DNA from: Yinghuangia seranimata
GTDB taxonomy: Bacteria; Actinomycetota; Actinomycetes; Streptomycetales; Streptomycetaceae
NCBI RefSeq assembly: GCF_029953285.1
Contig: NZ_JASAOI010000014.1
Span: 62,001 to 126,000, forward strand
Reading direction: 5' to 3'
DNA length: 64,000 nucleotides
Part shown: piece by piece, positions 38,297 to 48,158 of the stretch
Numbering within the stretch: the first letter of the stretch is position 1
Layout of the letters: each line of letters begins with the position of its first letter
Translations under genes and position numbers: made by a program
Notes under the pieces: generated by a model
What the model was told of the DNA's origin: nothing
The model's input: only the letters and a program-made list of their open reading frames with translations
Database searches by the model: none

Positions 38297-39490
38297 TCAG
38301 TCGACGGCGAGCGGGATGCGGTCCGCGGCGACGGCCTGGTGGGAGCTCGCCACCGTGCGGGCGGAGGTGCGGCTGGTCGTGGCCGCGAAGGCGGCAGCGG
38401 CGAGGAGGAAGGCGCCGGTGTAGATGAGCAGTCCGTTCTTGCCCACCGCGGCGAGGAGGGGGCCTCCGATCGCGCTGCCGACGGCGATGCCGGTGTACTG
38501 GACGCTGGAGTTCAGCGAGACGTAGATGGGCGCGGACTGCGGCGCGAGCGCGATGATCCGGTGCTGTTGGGCCAGGGTGGCGCTCCAGCCGGTCGCGCCC
38601 CACAGGATCAGGGCGGCGGCGGTGGTGGCGAACGTGGCGTCGGCGACGGTCAGGAGCATGATCGCGGTGGCGATGCCGGTGACGCCGACGACGATGACGC
38701 GGCGGGAGCCGTAGCGGTCGATGATGTGGCCGGCGAACGGCGCGCCGATCAGGGAGCCGACGCCGAAGGCGGTGAGCGCCCACGCGAGGCGGCCCGGGCT
38801 GCCGTGGGTCGCGTCGGCGATCAGGTCGCCGAGGTAGGGGTAGATCGCGTAGACGCCGATGTAGATCCAGAACGTCACCACGAGCACGCGCTGCACGCTG
38901 AACGTCCCCAGCGGGCGCAGGCGTTCGCGCAGCGGGACGGCGGGAGGCGTGGGCACGCCGCGCAGGGACGCGGCGAGGCCGGCGAGCGCGACGGTGCCGA
39001 GCGCGGTGACCAGCCACAGCGTCGCGCGCCAGTCGGCGTGTCCGGCGAGCCAGGTGCCGAGCGGGGCGCCGGCGGCCATCGCGGTGCCCATGCCGCCGGA
39101 GACGACGGCGAGCGCGCGGGCGCGGCGTTCGGGGGCGACGAGGGAGGCGGCCGCGGCGGCGGCGTTGGGTGCGTAGAGGGCTGCGCCGGCGGCGGTGAGG
39201 ACACGGGCGACGAGGGCGACGGGGTAGGTCGGCGCGAGGGCGGTCGCGGCGTTGCCGAGGGTGAAGACCGCGAGGGCGGTCAGCAGTAGTCGCCTGCGCG
39301 GCCAGGACGCGGTCGCGGCGGCGAGGAGGGGCGAGAGGACCGCGTACGCGAGGGCGAACGCGGTGACGAGCTGGCCGGCCGCGGCCGTCGACACGTCGAG
39401 GTCGGCACCGACGTCGCCGAGGATGCCGGCGATGACGAAGGTGTCGGTCCCGATCGCGAACATGCCGAGCGCGAGGACGACGAGACGCAT
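38297..39490 (-). CDS. MFS transporter, DHA1 type, ArsR-controlled
   Basis: A 397-residue, 12-helix carrier starting MRLVVLALGMFAIGTDTFVIAGIL, the typical DHA1 drug-efflux N-terminus. The motif-A-like loop is ASWPRRRLLL and motif C is GGMGTAMAAGAPLG. Related to AraJ/YdhP-type exporters of sugars or drugs. It is divergent from an ArsR repressor, with a 55-bp dyad between, so expression is probably induced when the ArsR releases DNA. Confidence 0.92.
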   Translation of the reverse strand: MRLVVLALGMFAIGTDTFVIAGILGDVGADLDVSTAAAGQLVTAFALAYAVLSPLLAAATASWPRRRLLLTALAVFTLGNAATALAPTYPVALVARVLTAAGAALYAPNAAAAAASLVAPERRARALAVVSGGMGTAMAAGAPLGTWLAGHADWRATLWLVTALGTVALAGLAASLRGVPTPPAVPLRERLRPLGTFSVQRVLVVTFWIYIGVYAIYPYLGDLIADATHGSPGRLAWALTAFGVGSLIGAPFAGHIIDRYGSRRVIVVGVTGIATAIMLLTVADATFATTAAALILWGATGWSATLAQQHRIIALAPQSAPIYVSLNSSVQYTGIAVGSAIGGPLLAAVGKNGLLIYTGAFLLAAAAFAATTSRTSARTVASSHQAVAADRIPLAVD

Positions 39491-40066: not shown

Positions 40067-40579
40067 TCAGTCCATACGCCGCGTCAACCGGTCCAACGAG
40101 CGCCGCAGTTCGCGTCCCGCACCCGGAACGATCAGCGCCCGCCCCGGGATTCGGAGGCCTCCGGTCAGCGCCACCCGCGTCCCGGCGCCGTCCGGCAGCG
40201 GCTCCGCGGCCATGCCGATGATGACGAACCGGCTTTGCAGCCAGCACCATCCGGGCCGCACCACCCCGTCCAGGCGCGCCCGCATGCCGTAGCGGCTGCG
40301 CGCGTGCGCGGTAACGCGGTCGCCGTCGCGCGCCGTCACCCGCACGTTCCGCATGTCCGGCTGGAACTCGCCGAAGCCGCCCTCCAGATCGGACATGACG
40401 GCCCACACGTCGGCGAACTCGGCGTCGAGCACGCCCTCCACGACCCGCGCCCCCGGGATCCCGGCCGCCATGACGTGCAGCCGGCGGACGGCGTCCAGGC
40501 CGGTGTCCGGCGTAGCGGAGGCCTCGGACGCGGCTTCCGGCCGCTGGGGCCCCGGGGGCCCGGTCTCGTCGTACGTCAT
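40067..40579 (-). CDS. SRPBCC-fold protein, third gene of sigma operon
   Basis: A 170-residue protein. After a 35-residue polar leader comes an SRPBCC/START-like domain: VVEGVLDAEFADVWAVMSDLEGGFGEFQPDMRNVRVTARDGDRV, then strands around RLDGVVRPGWCWLQSRFVIIGMAAEPL and the C-terminal helix GRELRRSLDRLTRRM. It would bind a hydrophobic ligand. Its ATG overlaps the sigma-factor stop (ATGA, 40576-40579), so it may sense or modulate in the same response. Confidence 0.82.
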   Translation of the reverse strand: MTYDETGPPGPQRPEAASEASATPDTGLDAVRRLHVMAAGIPGARVVEGVLDAEFADVWAVMSDLEGGFGEFQPDMRNVRVTARDGDRVTAHARSRYGMRARLDGVVRPGWCWLQSRFVIIGMAAEPLPDGAGTRVALTGGLRIPGRALIVPGAGRELRRSLDRLTRRMD

Positions 40580-41190
40580 CCCGTCCACATCCTTCGAAAG
40601 CCCGCCCGCGCCCGGTGCAGCCGGGACTTCACCGTGCCCTCCGGCACGCCCAGCAGCGCCGCCGCCTCCTGCTCGTCCAGCCCTTCGACGTCGCGCAGCA
40701 CCAGCACCGCGCGGTGTTCCGGCGACAGGCGCGCGAGGACGTCGTCGATGTCCGCGGCCAGTTGCGGGTCGCCGGGGGCCGGCAGGTCCGCCGGCTCGGC
40801 GGGGATGTCGCGCGCGTCGCGGCGGGCGACCCGGACCGCCTCGCGTGCGGCGATCGCGCGCACCCACCCGTACAGTGCGGCCGGTTCCTGCAGGCCGCGC
40901 AGCTTGCGGAAGACCACCACCAGTGTTTCCTGCACCGCGTCCTGACGGCTGCTCAGGGCGATCGGCGCGCAAATGGCCGACACGTAGGGGATCAGATGGT
41001 CGAGCAGGTCGTTCATCGCGATGGTGTCGCCGCCCCGCGCCGCGCGGGCCAGCGCGACACCGCGCTCCCGGCGCGCGTCTGCGGTGGCGGACGCGCCTAC
41101 GGTGCGGCCTTCCGCGCGCGGGCCGGCCGCCGGGCGCGCGACGGCGTCCGGCGGTCGGTGCGGCACGGGTCCGGTCATGGCGACGATCAT
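40576..41190 (-). CDS. ECF-type RNA polymerase sigma factor
   Basis: A 204-residue sigma factor. Region 2 is about residues 55-120 (SSRQDAVQETLVVVFRKLRG, then LYGWVRAIAAREAVRVARRD). Region 4 (150-200) reads LSPEHRAVLVLRDVEGLDEQEAAALLGVPEGTVKSRLHRAR. No SnoaL-type extension is present. Its start overlaps the stop of the DUF3995 membrane gene (ATGA, 41187-41190), and its stop overlaps the SRPBCC start. There is no recognisable zinc anti-sigma factor, so the membrane protein upstream or the SRPBCC protein might take that role; this is inference. Confidence 0.92.
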   Translation of the reverse strand: MIVAMTGPVPHRPPDAVARPAAGPRAEGRTVGASATADARRERGVALARAARGGDTIAMNDLLDHLIPYVSAICAPIALSSRQDAVQETLVVVFRKLRGLQEPAALYGWVRAIAAREAVRVARRDARDIPAEPADLPAPGDPQLAADIDDVLARLSPEHRAVLVLRDVEGLDEQEAAALLGVPEGTVKSRLHRARAGFRRMWTG

Positions 41191-41687
41191 CCCCGGTCGG
41201 CCCGCACGCGCCGCCACGGCCCCGGCAGCGGCACGCCGCGACCGGCGGCGGCCAGGCGCGCCGCGGCGTATCCGAAGCCGACGCACATCGGCGTGTAGAG
41301 CAGCAGATTCAGCCGGTAGAACGCGCTGTCCGTGTCCACCCCCACGCCGAGCGCCCAGCCGACGCCGACCGTCGCGCGGACCGTCAGGCCGGTCGCCACC
41401 GCGGCCGTCACGAGCCGGGCGCCGCGCCGGGCCGCCGGAGAGCCGAGCTCGTGCGCGTGGGCGTAGACGCCCGCCGCTGCGGTGGTCAGCACGGCGCACA
41501 GCGGCAGCAACACGCGCGGCGTGAACGGCACATCGGCGTTCAGCACGGCGTACGACAACGCCGTTGCGTCACCGGCGGGCCAGGTCAGCCCGGTCGCCCA
41601 GGCCGCGTGCAGCAGCGCGTCGGCGGCCAGCAGCGCCGCGACAGCCGTCCCGGCGCGTCGGCGCCGCGCAAGCAGGCGAGTCTCCAT
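41187..41687 (-). CDS. DUF3995-like four-helix membrane protein
   Basis: A 166-residue integral membrane protein with four helices. Helix 1 has ALLAADALLHAAWATGLTWPAG, the His-x2-Trp-Ala-x-Gly-x-Trp-Pro pattern of DUF3995. The rest runs through VLLPLCAVLTTAAAGVYAHA, LVTAAVATGLTVRATVGVGW and FYRLNLLLYTPMCVGFGYAA. The function is unknown. As first gene of the operon, with translation coupled to the ECF sigma factor, it may regulate or be regulated by that factor. The ATG follows AGGGGAA. Confidence 0.78.
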   Translation of the reverse strand: METRLLARRRRAGTAVAALLAADALLHAAWATGLTWPAGDATALSYAVLNADVPFTPRVLLPLCAVLTTAAAGVYAHAHELGSPAARRGARLVTAAVATGLTVRATVGVGWALGVGVDTDSAFYRLNLLLYTPMCVGFGYAAARLAAAGRGVPLPGPWRRVRADRG

Positions 41688-41865: not shown

Positions 41866-42627
41866 CTACCGCACGGCGAGGTGCTCGCTGTGGCGGCGGA
41901 GGCGGCGGGCGGCCAGGGTCGCCAGCGCCAGGGCGGCGGTGAGGAGGGCGGTGCAGGACGCGGCGACCGCGCCGGTGTCTCCGTCGAGCGCCGCGTGCAG
42001 CCCGTGGTTCGCCCAGAAGCCGGGGGAGACGGGTGCGATGACCGACACCCAGTGCGGCAGGACGCTGAGCGGGGCCATCGCGCCGCCGAGGCTGCTCAGG
42101 AGCATGGCGCCGACGTCGAAGGCGGCGGAGAGTTCGCTGCTGCTGCGGGCCAGGACGCCCAGCAGTGTGCCGAGGCCGAGCAGGGTGCACGTCCAGCACA
42201 GCAACACGCCGAGCAGCAGCGCCGGGTGCGCGATCCGCAGGCCGAACGCGGCGACGCCGAGGCCGAGGACGAGCGCCTGCTGGGCGAGCAGGGCGGCGAT
42301 CACCGGGACCGCTTTGCCGACCAGGATCTCGGCGGGGTGCAGGGTGGTCGCGCGCAGCCGGTCCCAGGTGTGGGCGAGGCGTTCGCTCAGGATCGCGCCG
42401 CCGGAGATGCTGAGGGCGAGCAGCGAGAACGTCACGAGCGTTCCGATGACAGCCTGTTCGGTGCCCTTCGTCGTGCCGAAGGCCGCGGTGTGCAGCGGGC
42501 GCAGCAGCGTCAGGAACGCGAGCGGCAGCACCATCCGGCTGATGAGCGGGCCGGGTTCGCGCAGCATCAGCCGCAGGTTGTGGTGGACGAGGACGCCCGT
42601 GCGGGCGGCGGCGTCACGCGGCGGCAT
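41866..42627 (-). CDS. ABC-2 type transporter permease
   Basis: A 253-residue permease with six helices. It has the ABC-2 features of an amphipathic N-terminus (VLVHHNLRLMLREPG), a helix 2 loop GAILSERLAHTWDRLRATTLHPAEILVGK, and FWANHGLHAALDGD late in the chain. It pairs with the overlapping ATPase gene to form a DrrAB/Ybh-type exporter at the cytoplasmic membrane. The start overlaps the ATPase gene by 14 bases. Control by the divergent TetR is likely. Confidence 0.92.
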   Translation of the reverse strand: MPPRDAAARTGVLVHHNLRLMLREPGPLISRMVLPLAFLTLLRPLHTAAFGTTKGTEQAVIGTLVTFSLLALSISGGAILSERLAHTWDRLRATTLHPAEILVGKAVPVIAALLAQQALVLGLGVAAFGLRIAHPALLLGVLLCWTCTLLGLGTLLGVLARSSSELSAAFDVGAMLLSSLGGAMAPLSVLPHWVSVIAPVSPGFWANHGLHAALDGDTGAVAASCTALLTAALALATLAARRLRRHSEHLAVR

Positions 42628-43498
42628 GGTCGTGAATCTCCTGGGTCGGGTGGTCGCCGAGGGACCGGTACAGGTCGTCGAGGCTGGGACGCCGGACGTC
42701 GACGGAGGCGGGTGTCCGGCCCGCCGCGAGCAGCGCGGCGAGGTCGGCGCCCGGATCGGTGGTCGCCAGGCGCAGTTCGGGTTCGGCGGCGTCGGTGAAG
42801 GTGACGCGCAGTTCGCCGGGCAGGTCGCGGGTGAGGTCGTGCCGGGTGCCGCGGGCGATCACGCGGCCGGCCCGGGCGAGCGCCAACGTGGCATCCAGGT
42901 CGACGAGTTCGGGGAGGTAGTGGGTGGTGTAAAGGACGGCCGCCCCCGCCTCGGCGCGCGCCTTGACGGCGGCGAGGAGGGCGGACCGGGTGGCGGGGTC
43001 GGCGCCCGCGGTCGGTTCGTCGAGGAGCAGCAGGGGCGGTGACGCGACCATGGCGGTCGCGGCCTGCACCCGTCGGCGCTGGCCGCCGGACAGGACGGCG
43101 ACGGGACGGTCCGCCAGCTCGGTCAGGCGCAGTTCGTCGAGGACGCGGTCGATCTCGGCCTGCCGGCGGGGACCGCGCAGTCCGGCCAGCCCGGCGAACA
43201 GCCGCAGGTTCTCGTGCACGGTGGCCGCGCCGTAGAGCGCCGACTCCTGGGGCGCGACGCCGAGTCGGCGCCGCGCCTCGCGCCCGGAGCGCGCCGAGCG
43301 CAGCGCGTCGAGGCCGCCGATGCGCAGCCGGCCCGCGTCGGGGCGCACGAGGCCGGTGACGATTTCGACGAAGGTGGTCTTGCCGGCGCCGTTGTGGCCG
43401 ATGAGCCCGACGATCTCCCCGGACCCGACGGTGAGGTCGAAGCCGTCGAGCACACGTCGGCCCCCGTAGCGCTTGACGAGCCCCTCGCTGATGAGCAT
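42614..43498 (-). CDS. ABC transporter ATP-binding protein
   Basis: A 294-residue ATPase of the drug-export class. Walker A GHNGAGKTTF (about residues 34-43), Q-loop VAPQESALYG, signature VLSGGQRRRV, Walker B LLLLDEPTAG and H-loop YTTHYLPE are all intact. A C-terminal extension (210-294) ends with the SLDDLYRSLG motif common in DrrA-type ATPases. ATG 43498 begins directly before the Walker fold. It is divergent from the TetR gene; two palindromes lie in the 53-bp gap. Confidence 0.95.
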   Translation of the reverse strand: MLISEGLVKRYGGRRVLDGFDLTVGSGEIVGLIGHNGAGKTTFVEIVTGLVRPDAGRLRIGGLDALRSARSGREARRRLGVAPQESALYGAATVHENLRLFAGLAGLRGPRRQAEIDRVLDELRLTELADRPVAVLSGGQRRRVQAATAMVASPPLLLLDEPTAGADPATRSALLAAVKARAEAGAAVLYTTHYLPELVDLDATLALARAGRVIARGTRHDLTRDLPGELRVTFTDAAEPELRLATTDPGADLAALLAAGRTPASVDVRRPSLDDLYRSLGDHPTQEIHDHAAA

Positions 43499-43519
43499 CG
43501 GCCCTCCTCGATCCCGCAT

Positions 43520-43549
43520 GTATACGCTGTATACGTCTACACTGTAGAC
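43520..43549. promoter_or_regulatory. two abutting 15-bp palindromic TetR operators
   Basis: GTATAC-GCT-GTATAC (43520-43534) and GTCTAC-ACT-GTAGAC (43535-43549) are perfect palindromes placed end to end. They occupy the gap between the ABC-exporter and TetR starts. TACACT (43538-43543) within the second could be the TetR -10 box, putting the RNA start at about the ATG (43552). Confidence 0.82.
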
Positions 43550-43551
43550 CC

Positions 43552-44178
43552 ATGGGAGGCAGGCGGGAAGAGGTTCTGGACGCGGCACTGGCGATCGCCG
43601 ACGAGGCGGGGCTGGACGCGGTGTCGATGCGTGCGGTCGCCGACCGGCTCGGCGTCACGCCGATGGCGCTGTACCGGCACGTAGACGGCAAGGACGCGCT
43701 GCTGGACGGCCTCGTCGGCCGGGTGCTGGCCGGGCTCCTGCCCGCCGACGGCGGCAAGGAACTGCCGTGGGGCGAACGCCTTCGCGCGCTCGCGTACGCC
43801 TGCCGCGAGGCGACACTGCGTCACCCCTGGTCGGCACAGCTGCTGTTCTCCCGCCCGGCCGTGACCCTCGACGCGGTGCGCGTCGTCGAACTGGTCTTCA
43901 CCGCCCTGCTGGACGCGGGCGTCCCCGAGCACGAAGTCCCGCGCCTGGAACGGCTGGTCAGTACCTTCGTCATCGGCTTCGCCGTCTCCGAGGCGGCCGG
44001 CCGCTTCGGCCCCGGCCGCATCGACACCCGCAGCCGCCGCGCGGGGTTCGGTGAGGGCGAACTGCCCGCCCACCAAAGGCTCGCGCCCTGGCTGGACCTC
44101 CCGCTCGACGTGGCCGCCGAGTTCGACGCCGACCTGGCCGACCTCGAACGCCTCATCGAGGCGGCCGCCCGCCGCTGA
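43552..44178 (+). CDS. TetR-family repressor of ABC exporter
   Basis: A 208-residue repressor. The helix-turn-helix is VLDAALAIADEAGLDAVSMRAVADRLGVTPMALYRHVDGKD (8-48). The ligand domain has CREATLRHPWSAQLLF and the TetR_C pattern. It is divergent from the ABC exporter and almost certainly represses it and itself through the twin palindromes. The ATG lies only 2 bases after the second palindrome and has no Shine-Dalgarno, so translation is probably leaderless. Confidence 0.92.
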   Translation: MGGRREEVLDAALAIADEAGLDAVSMRAVADRLGVTPMALYRHVDGKDALLDGLVGRVLAGLLPADGGKELPWGERLRALAYACREATLRHPWSAQLLFSRPAVTLDAVRVVELVFTALLDAGVPEHEVPRLERLVSTFVIGFAVSEAAGRFGPGRIDTRSRRAGFGEGELPAHQRLAPWLDLPLDVAAEFDADLADLERLIEAAARR

Positions 44179-44199: not shown

Positions 44200-44595
44200 C
44201 TATGCGGTGTCCGCCGCCTCGCTGCGCCCCGTCGCGCCGGCCAGCCGGGCGCGCAGGCGGGTCAGCCGGTCGATCTCGGCGTCGAGCGCCGCGAGCCGAC
44301 GGGTGACCGCGGCCGACGCGGGTGACGGCGGGTCGGACGGCGACGGAGACGCGCAGCGCGGCGTCGCGCCGTCCGTGAACATGTCCAGCCGCGCCGCGAA
44401 GCCGCGCACGTCCTCCACCGTGAGCCCGAGGTGCAGCAGTTCGCGGACGACGCGGATCCGCGCGACGTCGTCGGGCCCGTACTCGCGCTGGCCGGACGCA
44501 CTGCGCGGGGGCGGGGGGAGGAGCCCGCGCTCCTCGTAGAAGCGCAGCGCCCGCGGCGTCGTGCCGGCCGCCGCGGCCGCGTCCCCGATCCTCAT
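44200..44595 (-). CDS. MerR-family regulator
   Basis: A 131-residue regulator starting MRIGDAAAAAGTTPRALRFYEERGLLPP, the MerR helix-turn-helix with its YEERGL core. REYGPDDVARIRVVRELLHLGLTVEDVRGF forms the wing. A Ser/Pro-rich insert with one Cys lies near 80-95, and the dimer helix LAALDAEIDRLTRLRARLAG closes it. The multi-cysteine metal site of MerR/CueR is missing, so an organic or redox ligand is likely. It follows the MDR gene by 20 bases in the same direction, implying co-transcription and autoregulation. Confidence 0.92.
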   Translation of the reverse strand: MRIGDAAAAAGTTPRALRFYEERGLLPPPPRSASGQREYGPDDVARIRVVRELLHLGLTVEDVRGFAARLDMFTDGATPRCASPSPSDPPSPASAAVTRRLAALDAEIDRLTRLRARLAGATGRSEAADTA

Positions 44596-44615: not shown

Positions 44616-45641
44616 TTACAGCTTCACCACGACCGAGCCGAAGTGGCGTCCCTCGATCAGTTCCTGCAACGCCGCCGGGGCGCGGTCGATGCCCGGGAGC
44701 GCCACGTACGGGAAGCGGATCCGCCCCTCCCGCAGCCAGCCGCCGAAGCGCTCCGTCCACTCGGCCGGCACGTCGGGGTGGTCGGTGCCGCGGTAGCCGC
44801 GCATCGAGACGCCCTGGACGATGAGCCGGTAGCTGTCGACCTCGACCGGCGCGCTGCCGCCCGCGCGGTCGCCGGACAACTGGCCGGCCAACGCGCCGAC
44901 CAGCGCGATGCGCGCGCCCGGCCGCGCGGTGGCCACAGCGGCGGTCAACTGCTCGCCGCCGACGGTGTCCACGACGACGTCGACACCCTCGGGCGCGGCC
45001 TTCGCGAGGAGGTCCCCGAACGGCTCGGTTCCGCGGACGGCGACGGCGTCGAACCCGAACTCCGCCCGCAGCCGCTCGGCCTTCGCGGCCGATCCGGTGC
45101 TCCCGACCACCCGCCCCGCCCCCAACAGCCGTGCGATCTGCCCCGCGAGCACCCCGGTCGCGCCGGCCGCGCCGCTGACGAACACGGTGTCGCCGTCCCG
45201 GACGGGAGCGAGCCGGGTGAGCGCGCCGTACGCCGCCGAGCCGCTGGACAGGTGCGCCACCGGGTCCGGGAGGGCCTCGCCCACAGGGCTGCACCGCGTG
45301 GCGGGGAGCAGGGCGAACTCCCGCCAGCCGTCGAGGTGGACCACCGTCTCACCGGGCCGCAGCCCGGCCCCGTCGCCCGCCGCGACCACCTCGCCCACCG
45401 CCGGACCGAACAGCGTGTCACCCGCGCGCAGCGGCGGCAGCGGCAGCCCGCCGGTCTCGTCGCCCATCAGCGTGCGTAGCCCCGGAAACACCAGGAAGTG
45501 CCCGTTCCTGACCAGGACTTCGCCGGGTCCGGGGGCGGCGACCGGGACCTCGGCGATCCGCAGGTCGGCGGCCGTCGGCAGGCCTTGCGGCTGTACGGTC
45601 AGCCGGACTTCGCGCGAAGTGCGGGGCAGGGACGGGGTCAT
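44616..45641 (-). CDS. NADP-dependent MDR oxidoreductase (quinone/alkenal reductase-like)
   Basis: A 341-residue medium-chain dehydrogenase without zinc ligands. The GroES-like part runs to about 125. The Rossmann loop VFVSGAAGATGVLAGQIARLLGAGRVVGSTGS lies near 150-180, followed by GVDVVVDTVGGEQL and FGGWLREGRIRFP. This is the leukotriene-B4-dehydrogenase-like group, which reduces alkenals, alkenones and quinones with NADPH. Linked to a MerR regulator, as is usual for these detoxifying reductases. ATG 45641 has GAGGAG at 7 bases. Confidence 0.92.
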   Translation of the reverse strand: MTPSLPRTSREVRLTVQPQGLPTAADLRIAEVPVAAPGPGEVLVRNGHFLVFPGLRTLMGDETGGLPLPPLRAGDTLFGPAVGEVVAAGDGAGLRPGETVVHLDGWREFALLPATRCSPVGEALPDPVAHLSSGSAAYGALTRLAPVRDGDTVFVSGAAGATGVLAGQIARLLGAGRVVGSTGSAAKAERLRAEFGFDAVAVRGTEPFGDLLAKAAPEGVDVVVDTVGGEQLTAAVATARPGARIALVGALAGQLSGDRAGGSAPVEVDSYRLIVQGVSMRGYRGTDHPDVPAEWTERFGGWLREGRIRFPYVALPGIDRAPAALQELIEGRHFGSVVVKL

Positions 45642-45710
45642 GAGCGGACTCCTCGGGACGCGGGTGCCGCGCCACGCCGGCCTCGGCCGTGGCGCCGCGG
45701 CGACGCTAAA

Positions 45711-45731
45711 CCCTGACGCGCGCGTCAAGGG
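45711..45731 (-). promoter_or_regulatory. probable MerR operator before MDR-MerR operon
   Basis: CCCTGACGCG and CGCGTCAAGGG, meeting at 45711-45731, form an inverted repeat with one extra base. On the minus strand it contains a TTGACG -35-like box, with TAGCGT beyond it. It lies 70-90 bases before the MDR start. Confidence 0.55.
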
Positions 45732-45785
45732 CAAGCCGACGCCCGTCGCACGGACGGACGTGCCGCAGGCCGGGACGCCGCCCTC

Positions 45786-47375
45786 TCAGCGACCGCCCTC
45801 CGGCGCGGTGCCCGGTGGCACGACGGCCGTGCCCTGGCCCCACCCCGTGTAGTTGACGCTGAACGGGTCGTCCGACGGGTCCGGCCAGCCGGTGGCAGCC
45901 CGCTCCGGGGTGACCGTCACTCCGACGTGGAACTCCAGCCTGGACGGCAGGTGTTGGGCGTCGGTGACCAGCACGAAGCCGACGACGCCGTCGGTCGGCC
46001 CGCGGCCCAGGTAGGGGCCGTACAGGAACGCGCCGCCCGGATCGGCGGCCAGCGCCGCGAGCGGGGCGTGTCCGATCAGGGTGCGGGTGCCGTCGGCGTT
46101 GGACACATCGGTGGTCAGCGCGGCGTTGTCCAGCAGCAGGACGAGGTTCGCGGGCGACACCATCCAGCGGGCCAGACGGGCGTCGTCGATCCGCGGATCC
46201 GCCGCGCGCGCGAGACCGTCCACCGCCGAGGGGGTGCCCACAGGCGACGGGAACGCCTTGATGTCGGTCGCCGTCACCCACCCTCGGTCGCCGACCAGGA
46301 CCACCTCGGGCGGGTTCCACGGGTGCCCCTCGCCCATGTCGTAGCCCACCAGGGTCCGGACGTTCGCCGAGCCGTCGGTTTGGACGTCCAGCCTGGTCTC
46401 GCCCTTGATCCAGTCCCGCGCGCCGAAATTGCGGGCGCTGACCGACGCGGTCGCCAGCTGTGCCCGAATCATCGCCGCCCGAACGGCGGCCGCCTGCACG
46501 GTCTTCGGCCCGACCGAAGCCTGCTCGGTCGCCGCCGCGGCTGCAACCGCATGCGTCCGATGCGGCGGCGGCGTCACCACGCCGACCACGACCGCGAGAA
46601 CCACGAACAGCACCGTGGCGATCCCCGCCACGCCACCGAGCGGTGCCGAGGACGCGGGCACGTCGGGAGCCGGAGCCGTCGCGTCGAACACCTCCTCGAC
46701 GCGCGCCCGCAGGGGAGCCGCGCACAGCACCGGCACCAGCACCGGCCGCCAAGGATCGAGCAACCGCGGGTCATGATCCCGCCCCGGAAGGGCGAACGAC
46801 ACGAAGCCCCGCCAGGCCGCATCCAGCACCTCGCGCGCGTCGTCGTCGGCCCGCTCGGGGGAGACCCGCAGCACGGCGGCGAGCGCCGTACCGTACAGCC
46901 CGCGGCGCAGCGCGTACTCGAAGACGTGCTGCCGGTACGGGTCGAACGTCGGGACGATGTGGTTGTCGAGCGCCGCCCTCACCTGGTTCAGCCCGGCCTC
47001 GTCCTCGGTCTCGAGCAATCCGTGGCCGGGCGCGGCGTGTTCGCCGTTCTCGCCGAACATGAGGGCGTCCAGGCCCGGCCGTTGCCCGTCCTGCGCCGCG
47101 GCGACCCGGTGCCGCGCGACGACGTGCAGGAACCCGCTCAGCGGCTGCCTGACGGTGTGCCCCGCCGCGAAGTGCCCCGCGAGCTCCGCGAACACGTCCG
47201 CCGCGGCGTCGACCGCGCGGTCCCGGTCGTCGATCCGGACGGCGCAGAAGGCCAGCACCTGCCGGTGGTACCGCTCGAACACCATGCCCAACGCGTCACG
47301 CCGCGTCGCCGGATGCTCCAGGAAGCGGACCAGGTCCGCGTCCGTCCACCCGGTGCCAGGCCCCTCCACGCTCAT
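45786..47375 (-). CDS. sigma-factor-like protein fused to membrane anchor and exported domain
   Basis: A 529-residue protein with three parts. Residues 10-95 resemble ECF sigma region 2 (LGMVFERYHRQVLAFCAVRI, then AVDAAADVFAELAGHF and GFLHVVARHRVAA). Residues 130-195 are helical and could be a degenerate region 4 (YGTALAAVLRVSPERADDDAREVL). A single transmembrane helix lies at about 247-268 (IATVLFVVLAVVVGVV). The exported part (about 290-529) is beta-rich and ends FSVNYTGWGQGTAVVPP, reminiscent of LppX/LprG-type lipoproteins. This would tether a sigma-like domain to the membrane with an outside sensor. No separate anti-sigma gene adjoins it. ATG 47375 is preferred; 47417 is an alternative. 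Confidence 0.7.
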   Translation of the reverse strand: MSVEGPGTGWTDADLVRFLEHPATRRDALGMVFERYHRQVLAFCAVRIDDRDRAVDAAADVFAELAGHFAAGHTVRQPLSGFLHVVARHRVAAAQDGQRPGLDALMFGENGEHAAPGHGLLETEDEAGLNQVRAALDNHIVPTFDPYRQHVFEYALRRGLYGTALAAVLRVSPERADDDAREVLDAAWRGFVSFALPGRDHDPRLLDPWRPVLVPVLCAAPLRARVEEVFDATAPAPDVPASSAPLGGVAGIATVLFVVLAVVVGVVTPPPHRTHAVAAAAATEQASVGPKTVQAAAVRAAMIRAQLATASVSARNFGARDWIKGETRLDVQTDGSANVRTLVGYDMGEGHPWNPPEVVLVGDRGWVTATDIKAFPSPVGTPSAVDGLARAADPRIDDARLARWMVSPANLVLLLDNAALTTDVSNADGTRTLIGHAPLAALAADPGGAFLYGPYLGRGPTDGVVGFVLVTDAQHLPSRLEFHVGVTVTPERAATGWPDPSDDPFSVNYTGWGQGTAVVPPGTAPEGGR

Positions 47376-47614
47376 ACGCCGACCCCCCGGCCCTGAACTC
47401 CCCGGCGCCGCCGACAACTCCGACGCCCCTCACCGTCCCCGGGAATCGGCCCCCACCGGCACCCGACTCCATGCTCCCGCGCGGTCACAGAGCGTGTCCC
47501 GAAATCGCGGAACCTGCCCGTCGCGCACGCCGGATCCTGTCCACGGCGGCGCGTTCGGCCGCAGCCCTGCCGGCGACGCGCGTGCCCGCGGTTCGCGGCG
47601 TGTGTGGCGTATGA

Positions 47615-47633
47615 CACATATGTTGGTTATGTG
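47615..47633. promoter_or_regulatory. inverted repeat overlapping the start of a membrane-protein gene
   Basis: CACATA (47615-47620) and TATGTG (47628-47633) are perfect arms with a 7-base spacer; TATG-ACA-CATA (47610-47620) overlaps it. The dyad covers the GTG at 47631. The patch is AT-rich against its surroundings. Confidence 0.5.
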
Positions 47634-48158
47634 AGTGAATTGTCGGAAATGCCAGATGGGGCGGCGGACGACGACCGTCCCGGCGGGCGGGCGCACACGG
47701 ACTACACCGGCGCGGTCTACGGCTCGCTGTTGGCGGCGTCGGTGGTCGCGGCGGTCGGGGCGTCGGGCTACAACCGGCGGTCGGAGCTGATCGTGCTCCT
47801 GCTGGTCTCGGGGCTCGTGTTCTGGGCCGCGCACGTGTACTCGCGGCTGGCCGGCGAGCGGGCCGCGCACAAGCAGGTGACCCGGCGCGAAGTCCGACGG
47901 GTCGCGGGGAGCGAGTGGTCGATCGTGGAGGCCGCGCTGCTGCCGGCCGCCGCGGTCGCGGTCAGCCCGCTGTTCGGCCTCGGGCTGAGCGGGACGGCGT
48001 GGCTGGCGATCTCCGTGGCGGTCGGCCAGCAGGTGGCGTGGGCGGTGTTGGGGGCGCTCCGGGCCGGCGCGTCGCGCGGACTGGCCGTGGTGGAGGGCGC
48101 GGTCAACCTGGTGCTCGGGCTCATCCTCGTGGCCGCCAAGGCGGCCCTCGGGCACTGA
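47631..48158 (+). CDS. membrane protein of unknown function (about five helices)
   Basis: A 175-residue integral membrane protein. A polar, acidic 25-residue head is followed by helix pairs (YGSLLAASVVAAVGASGYNRR, ELIVLLLVSGLVFWAAHVYSRLAG) and, after a basic loop KQVTRREVRRVAG, three more (AALLPAAAVAVSPLF, WLAISVAVGQQVAWAVLGAL, GAVNLVLGLILVAAKAAL). No family is recognised with certainty. The start is uncertain: GTG 47604, GTG 47631 and ATG 47649 are all in frame and none has a good ribosome site, so leaderless translation is possible. Confidence 0.72.
   Translation: MSELSEMPDGAADDDRPGGRAHTDYTGAVYGSLLAASVVAAVGASGYNRRSELIVLLLVSGLVFWAAHVYSRLAGERAAHKQVTRREVRRVAGSEWSIVEAALLPAAAVAVSPLFGLGLSGTAWLAISVAVGQQVAWAVLGALRAGASRGLAVVEGAVNLVLGLILVAAKAALGH

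Follow-up and report, generated by a model that had tools for sequence, protein, structure and literature searches.

A sigma-like domain joined by a membrane helix to an LppX/LolA-like exported domain, without the zinc-finger segment kept by its relatives

We identified, in the window (the whole stretch of 64,000 nucleotides analysed here), a complete gene whose product joins in one chain a sigma-like domain, a linker without a zinc finger, a membrane helix and an LppX/LolA-like exported domain. The one-chain plan is itself known; what is unusual in this copy is the lack of the zinc finger, together with a strongly deviating sigma domain. We consider, with a probability of about 0.45, that this protein is a derived one-chain transducer akin to ECF52/53, with a sensor of the lipid-carrier type, in which the inner domain would either be restrained by its tether only or no longer work as a sigma factor, a reading that draws on sequence comparison, on predicted structures and on analogy with characterised systems.

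The gene occupies 45786..47375 on the minus strand, as the earlier note had correctly placed it, with its ATG at 47375 and its stop codon ending at 45786, and was delimited by its open reading frame, codon GC and hydropathy. Genome scans gave an open frame of 547 aa, and in one case 937 aa, at this locus; the window sequence itself gives 529 aa from the ATG. Its codon-position GC is 0.77/0.53/0.92, and third-position GC is high in each of nine blocks of at most 60 codons (0.85-0.98), so the frame looks coding throughout. The source genome comprises 9.8 Mb in 113 contigs.

Judged from sequence and models, the N-terminal domain is sigma-derived, with eroded kinship. A sigma region 2-like domain (residues 12-111; 47043..47342, minus strand) was recognised by NCBIfam TIGR02952, by a profile of fusion relatives run on residues 1-110, by AlphaFold2 and by Foldseek, and is followed by a weak region 4-like segment (residues about 112-205; 46761..47042, minus strand), recognised by the profile of relatives and containing the putative recognition helix. 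Pfam returned no family for the whole 529 aa at E <= 10, TIGR02952 matched residues 26-92 only (E 3.1e-4, 20.7 bits, cut-off 206), the NCBI sigma70-ECF model did not list the protein at E <= 0.1, and neither Pfam nor NCBIfam gave a curated region 4 match. The empty Pfam search would fit a chance resemblance or a mis-called frame with no sigma relative, an explanation that is contradicted on two counts and that we hold to be very improbable. Firstly, a profile built from the N-termini of three proteins that had all been found via their exported ends (L019, L024 and L027) recognised residues 1-200 at E 2.8e-21, whereas the best of 1000 shuffles reached 4.4e-4. Secondly, L024 aligns over residues 11-525 of the fusion with 31% identity (E 1.9e-52). 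An E-value of 7.8e-28 was obtained with relatives selected by their match to the sigma part of the window protein, and is flattered by that choice, so the exported-end profile is quoted instead.

The same profile matched residues 1-110 at E 1.7e-15 (best of 1000 shuffles 2.7e-4) and residues 111-205 at E 4.9e-7 (best of 1000 shuffles 2.4e-5), bearing out the earlier note's description of a region 2-like N-terminus and of a weak region-4-like segment, the latter being homologous to region 4 by sequence and as weak as stated. The sigma HMM search that the earlier note had proposed, with the lack of a significant match counting against a sigma origin, came close to going against it, being negative with Pfam and positive with the profile of relatives. 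Run against the PDB, a profile of 14 sigma domains, the window's among them, retrieved ECF sigma factors with E-values down to 1e-24; the one PDB chain that phmmer matched to the fusion protein was AKAP18 (E 1.6), which we took as chance. AlphaFold2, run on residues 1-245 with a three-row alignment, predicted two helical domains (pLDDT 79.4), and 13 of the 14 best Foldseek matches of this model were sigma factors or sigma-chain entries, the exception being 9a7s, at poor E-values (best 0.036).

A zinc-finger segment that the relatives carry between region 4 and the membrane helix, and that the earlier reader missed, is absent from the fusion protein by sequence. L019, L024 and L027 all have the motif HxxxCxxCxxCxxC at this place; the window protein lacks HxxxCxxC, its only cysteines being residues 44 and 218. 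Two aligned landmarks lie 22 residues apart in the fusion and 68-70 apart in these three proteins, which makes an in-frame gap of 46-48 residues at the junction (residues 198-234; 46674..46784, minus strand, from the alignment), and the regions flanking the gap still align. All 14 extended sigma relatives taken from other records have HxxxCxxC behind the sigma domain, a tally that leaves out L003, L005 and L012 (233, 243 and 210 aa; sigma-like, with no long extension) and that does not represent 14 independent cases, L010 and L011 being close to each other. Where relatives were selected by sigma match, the selection does not affect their retention of the zinc finger. As a side observation, one of them (L004:1378-3003, plus strand), with a sigma part and HxxxCxxC, has a ricin-type lectin domain at its end (Pfam E 8.3e-12), a similar plan with another outside module.

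Within the same genome, we found 62 sigma-like matches among 150 scored of 392 candidates, and inspected 30 of them, the window's included. Five of the 29 other inspected frames have HxxxCxxC in an extension (L044, L045, L049, L051 and L055), all but L051 with a membrane helix as well, and none of the 29, some of which are end-cut, has a membrane helix without HxxxCxxC. The C-terminal ends of L044, L045, L049 and L055 differ from one another by eye. We considered that the zinc finger might have moved to a separate gene, and rejected this, as the profile of the segment, run over the own genome, yielded three weak matches and no convincing separate copy; these were the L055 gene, itself another fusion (E 0.067), the window's own flank behind the gap, which resembles positions 54-82 of the 86-position zinc-finger profile at only E 0.15, and one at E 0.78.

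The single membrane helix that the earlier note had placed at about 247-268 was recovered by Kyte-Doolittle hydropathy as the one strong hydrophobic segment, its best 19-mer being residues 249-267 (46575..46631, minus strand; mean 2.98). The 20 residues before it contain no lysine or arginine, compared with four arginines in L024, five in L027 and seven in L019, making for a weaker topology signal in the fusion. There is no lipobox, neither of the two cysteines lying behind the membrane segment.

We compared the sigma domain with others in an alignment of 44 sigma-like domains, comprising the window's, those of the 14 extended relatives and 29 others of the same genome. Of the 36 conserved-group columns, the fusion departs at 16, more than any other of the 44, with a lead that is not wide over L004 (14) and L049 (13). 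The changed positions include residues 58, 59 and 63, which we take to belong to region 2.2, residue 96, presumably of region 2.4, and residues 182 and 184, presumably of the recognition helix. The region 2.4 stretch, residues 75-105, contains 4 basic residues in the fusion, versus 5-10 in 12 of 13 relatives and 3 in L004, and the stretch 169-190 has a net charge of -2, versus -1 to +4 in the relatives (L024 -1; L013 is incomplete there). From these basic residues, this charge and the 16 deviating columns, we infer that the domain may not act as a sigma factor. Having drifted this far, it probably reads promoters poorly, or would now be a module that binds RNA polymerase or another protein; with regard to promoter reading, we lean slightly towards an inner domain that is no longer a sigma factor, tethered release being kept as the general plan. 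The alternative raised by the earlier note, of a sigma-derived binding module in place of a sigma factor, thus gains some support from this being the most deviating of the 44.

The same deviations, the depleted region 2.4 stretch and the acidic recognition helix would also be expected of a relic that reads no promoter and serves as the cytoplasmic anchor of a working exported LppX-like domain, the zinc finger having been lost with nothing left to restrain. Its empty Pfam search points the same way, given that seven of seven other sigma fusions match Sigma70_r2 at E <= 1 (several of them below the Pfam cut-off). We hold this explanation to be quite possible, if somewhat doubtful: the frame is intact, with a third-position GC of 0.95-0.98 over residues 1-180, over most of regions 2 and 4 the model has a block pLDDT of 84-96, and L024 deviates too, at 11 of 36 columns, with its zinc finger kept.

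The loss of the zinc finger together with the erosion of the sigma domain leaves either a tether that alone restrains or an inner domain that has ceased to be a sigma factor. In the former case, a working sigma factor would be held off by the membrane tether only, no anti-sigma domain would take part, and regulated proteolysis would activate it. The presence of the membrane helix and the clean absence of the zinc-finger segment agree with this, and proteolytic release has been characterised experimentally for IutY and proposed for ECF48, ECF52 and ECF53 (PMC8999054). The promoter-reading residues are, however, eroded, and a tether by itself may be too little to hold a sigma factor away from RNA polymerase, and we regard a working sigma factor of this kind as unlikely.

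For the C-terminal part (residues 284-529; 45789..46526, minus strand), delimited with relatives, AlphaFold2 and Foldseek, we modelled a half-barrel fold of the LppX/LprF/LolA type. The AlphaFold2 model, made with 7 sequences, has a pLDDT of 77.8 and a pTM of 0.79, and its top PDB match in Foldseek is LprF of M. bovis (4qa8; E 2.8e-6, prob 1.00, TM-score 0.53/0.60). Ranks two and three are taken by two chains of one porin-like Bacteroides protein (TM-scores 0.26-0.28), and the weaker ranks are crowded by MHC chains of low probability. Below LprF also come the LolA-type 4mxt (E 1.3e-3, prob 1.00), MucB (6in9_A; E 1.4e-3, prob 0.98, with a TM-score of only 0.32/0.30) and 6in8 (E 0.039, TM-score 0.41/0.37). 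Neither Pfam nor NCBIfam gave a family for the domain at E <= 10, and it has no LppX_LprAFG or NF053532 match of its own; the LppX/LprG resemblance suggested by the earlier note is supported by fold and not by Pfam. The exported-domain profile found no LppX-type PDB chain by sequence; the 13 antibody-type or designed-binder chains that it did match (best E 0.028) were taken as chance.

By sequence, the exported domain is rare. We found it in 4 of 394 genomes of the family, its own included, one of the four (L023) being unrelated; in 9 of 392 genomes of the genus of G047, a genome of the same family and another genus, three of the nine holding fragments; and in 5 of 394 genomes of the class, again with its own included, three of these being weak and distant. 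A scan of genome contigs with the fusion protein as single query returned no relative; an alignment-based contig scan, which used two short peptide patterns only and will have missed members, found six. We counted as one locus each L002, L020 and L030 with L026, L031 with L027, L032 with L028 and L035 with L022, left the fragments L036-L038 out of the intact count, and did not treat the weak and distant L040-L042 as members; L042 (E 9.8e-4) is a SCO4651-family lipoprotein by NCBIfam (136.3 bits vs 65). L015, L016 and L023 were uncounted, L023 being rejected as a relative since its frame is methyltransferase-like by eye, and L016 as an antisense-like frame.

Among the resulting 11 intact non-redundant loci, the domain is fused to a sigma-like domain in four (the window, L019, L024 and L027) and unfused in seven. 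Among the unfused proteins, L022 and L026 have signal peptides that look lipobox-like by eye, which indicates that the domain is exported, and L025, L028, L029, L033 and L034 have a hydrophobic N-terminal segment by eye. With the whole L019 fusion as query, no sigma part turned up in the stretches of L022, L025, L026, L028 and L029, that of L022 being only 3.7 kb long. The seven unfused loci favour a relic inner domain, as do the fragments of the domain in three other genomes of G047's genus, which suggest dispensability. One of these fragments has an in-frame stop, and from the sequences the exported-domain family seems to decay in places. Separately, we observed that in two Streptomyces the unfused exported-domain gene is directly preceded by a frame (L028:6233-7711 and L029:5904-7613, both on the plus strand), and that these two frames are related, with 31% and 38% identity in pieces.

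The survey of homologues that the earlier note had called for yielded a conserved fusion order in 3 of the 10 other intact loci: L019 (also P0003; WP_331732261.1, on a plasmid of Streptomyces sp. NBC_00015), L024 (Streptomyces sp. NEAU-Y11) and L027 (S. rhizosphaerihabitans). All three have the order and exported domain family of the window protein, with 33-39% identity in the exported part, and differ from it in keeping the zinc-finger motif. In a further alignment, L024 showed 37% identity. L019 is annotated as a 'sigma-70 family RNA polymerase sigma factor', and passes the NCBI sigma70-ECF cut-off of 42.9 bits (56.4), as does L027 (52.8); L024 falls below it (27.0).

We found no shared neighbourhood between the 23 kb around the fusion and the L019, L024 and L027 stretches, using a simple gene caller. 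The sole match of a gene other than the fusion was between 38300-39490 and L027:1708-3258 (32% over 174 aa), which does not adjoin the fusion. Downstream on the same strand lie a zinc-type dehydrogenase (44619-45734) and a MerR regulator (44203-44559), and divergently upstream a membrane-like protein (47604-48155) with no Pfam match at E <= 0.1. L019 (4204-4614, minus strand) and L027 (6379-6711, minus strand) have in common a small membrane-like protein divergent from the fusion gene, with 43% identity over 95 aa, and has no match among the genes called around the window fusion. The window additionally contains an ordinary-looking ECF sigma factor about 4 kb from the fusion gene (40579-41568, minus strand), whose region 4 is strong (Pfam Sigma70_r4_2 E 3.3e-17), and, by sequence look, at 41869-44175 an ABC-type ATPase/permease pair with a divergent TetR-like regulator next to it. 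Rfam gave no match in the window, and the interval 45500-47800 yielded neither promoter-like nor terminator-like sites.

Sigma factors fused to membrane-anchored extensions have been described as ECF48, ECF52 and ECF53 (PMC8999054) and in SCO4117 of Streptomyces coelicolor, an ECF52 protein (PMC5826349). The fusion plan pointed out by the earlier note is thus not novel, and the four frames of the same genome with sigma domain, zinc finger and membrane helix share its layout. The three groups and the window protein have in common a sigma domain and a membrane helix in one chain and an actinobacterial origin, and ECF52 has an outside part, as is predicted for the window protein. They differ in that the extension of ECF48, ECF52 and ECF53 carries a zinc-finger anti-sigma segment (PMC8999054), and in that SCO4117 exposes a proline-rich stretch and a carbohydrate-binding module where the window protein has an LppX/LolA-like domain. 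Since the zinc finger was looked for and is absent, we do not claim membership of ECF52/53.

The exported domain resembles those of RseB and MucB, in which a LolA/LppX-like lipid-holding domain controls a sigma pathway from outside the membrane, MucB sensing lipid and controlling proteolysis (PMC7400510). RseB and MucB are periplasmic proteins in their own right, with two domains each, and act on a membrane anti-sigma factor as gatekeepers of the RseA-sigma-E and MucA-AlgU pathways, whereas the window protein has one such domain, fused in cis behind the membrane helix, with no anti-sigma segment left. Fold likeness also links it to the LppX/LprF/LprG lipoproteins and the SCO4651 family (NF053532), from which it differs in having a membrane-helix anchor instead of a lipobox, and a fused sigma-like domain. 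Among titles and abstract beginnings of the open-licence literature, we found no description of a sigma factor fused to an LppX, LolA-like or LprF/LprG domain.

Joining the plan and proposed release of SCO4117, the release of IutY and the lipid gating of MucB, we can outline a likely ancestral mechanism by analogy. The ancestral type would have been an actinobacterial protein with an ECF sigma factor, a zinc-finger anti-sigma segment, a membrane helix and an outside domain in one chain. The C-terminal domain would lie outside the cell and sense lipid or lipoprotein, as MucB and RseB do in the AlgU and sigma-E pathways; ligand binding would alter the access of membrane proteases, and cleavage would free the N-terminal piece, the zinc-finger part being removed from the sigma piece. 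In this copy, which lacks the zinc finger, nothing but the membrane tether would still act as a restraint, and release by proteolysis is plausible by analogy. A more specific proposal, which we think improbable, is that of a lipid-responsive one-chain transducer without an anti-sigma factor, in which an RseB-type lipid-sensing fold would be linked in cis through one membrane helix to the sigma-derived domain, with tether and protease replacing the trio of sigma factor, anti-sigma factor and RseB, or in which the sigma-derived domain would capture RNA polymerase or another partner at the membrane.

If the inner domain still works, it would represent a sigma factor under tether-only control, and in Actinobacteria transcription would be tied directly to a lipid-carrier fold. 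Should it be inactive, the series from L027 and L019 through L024 to the window protein would document steps by which a sigma factor may lose both promoter reading and its brake within a membrane protein.
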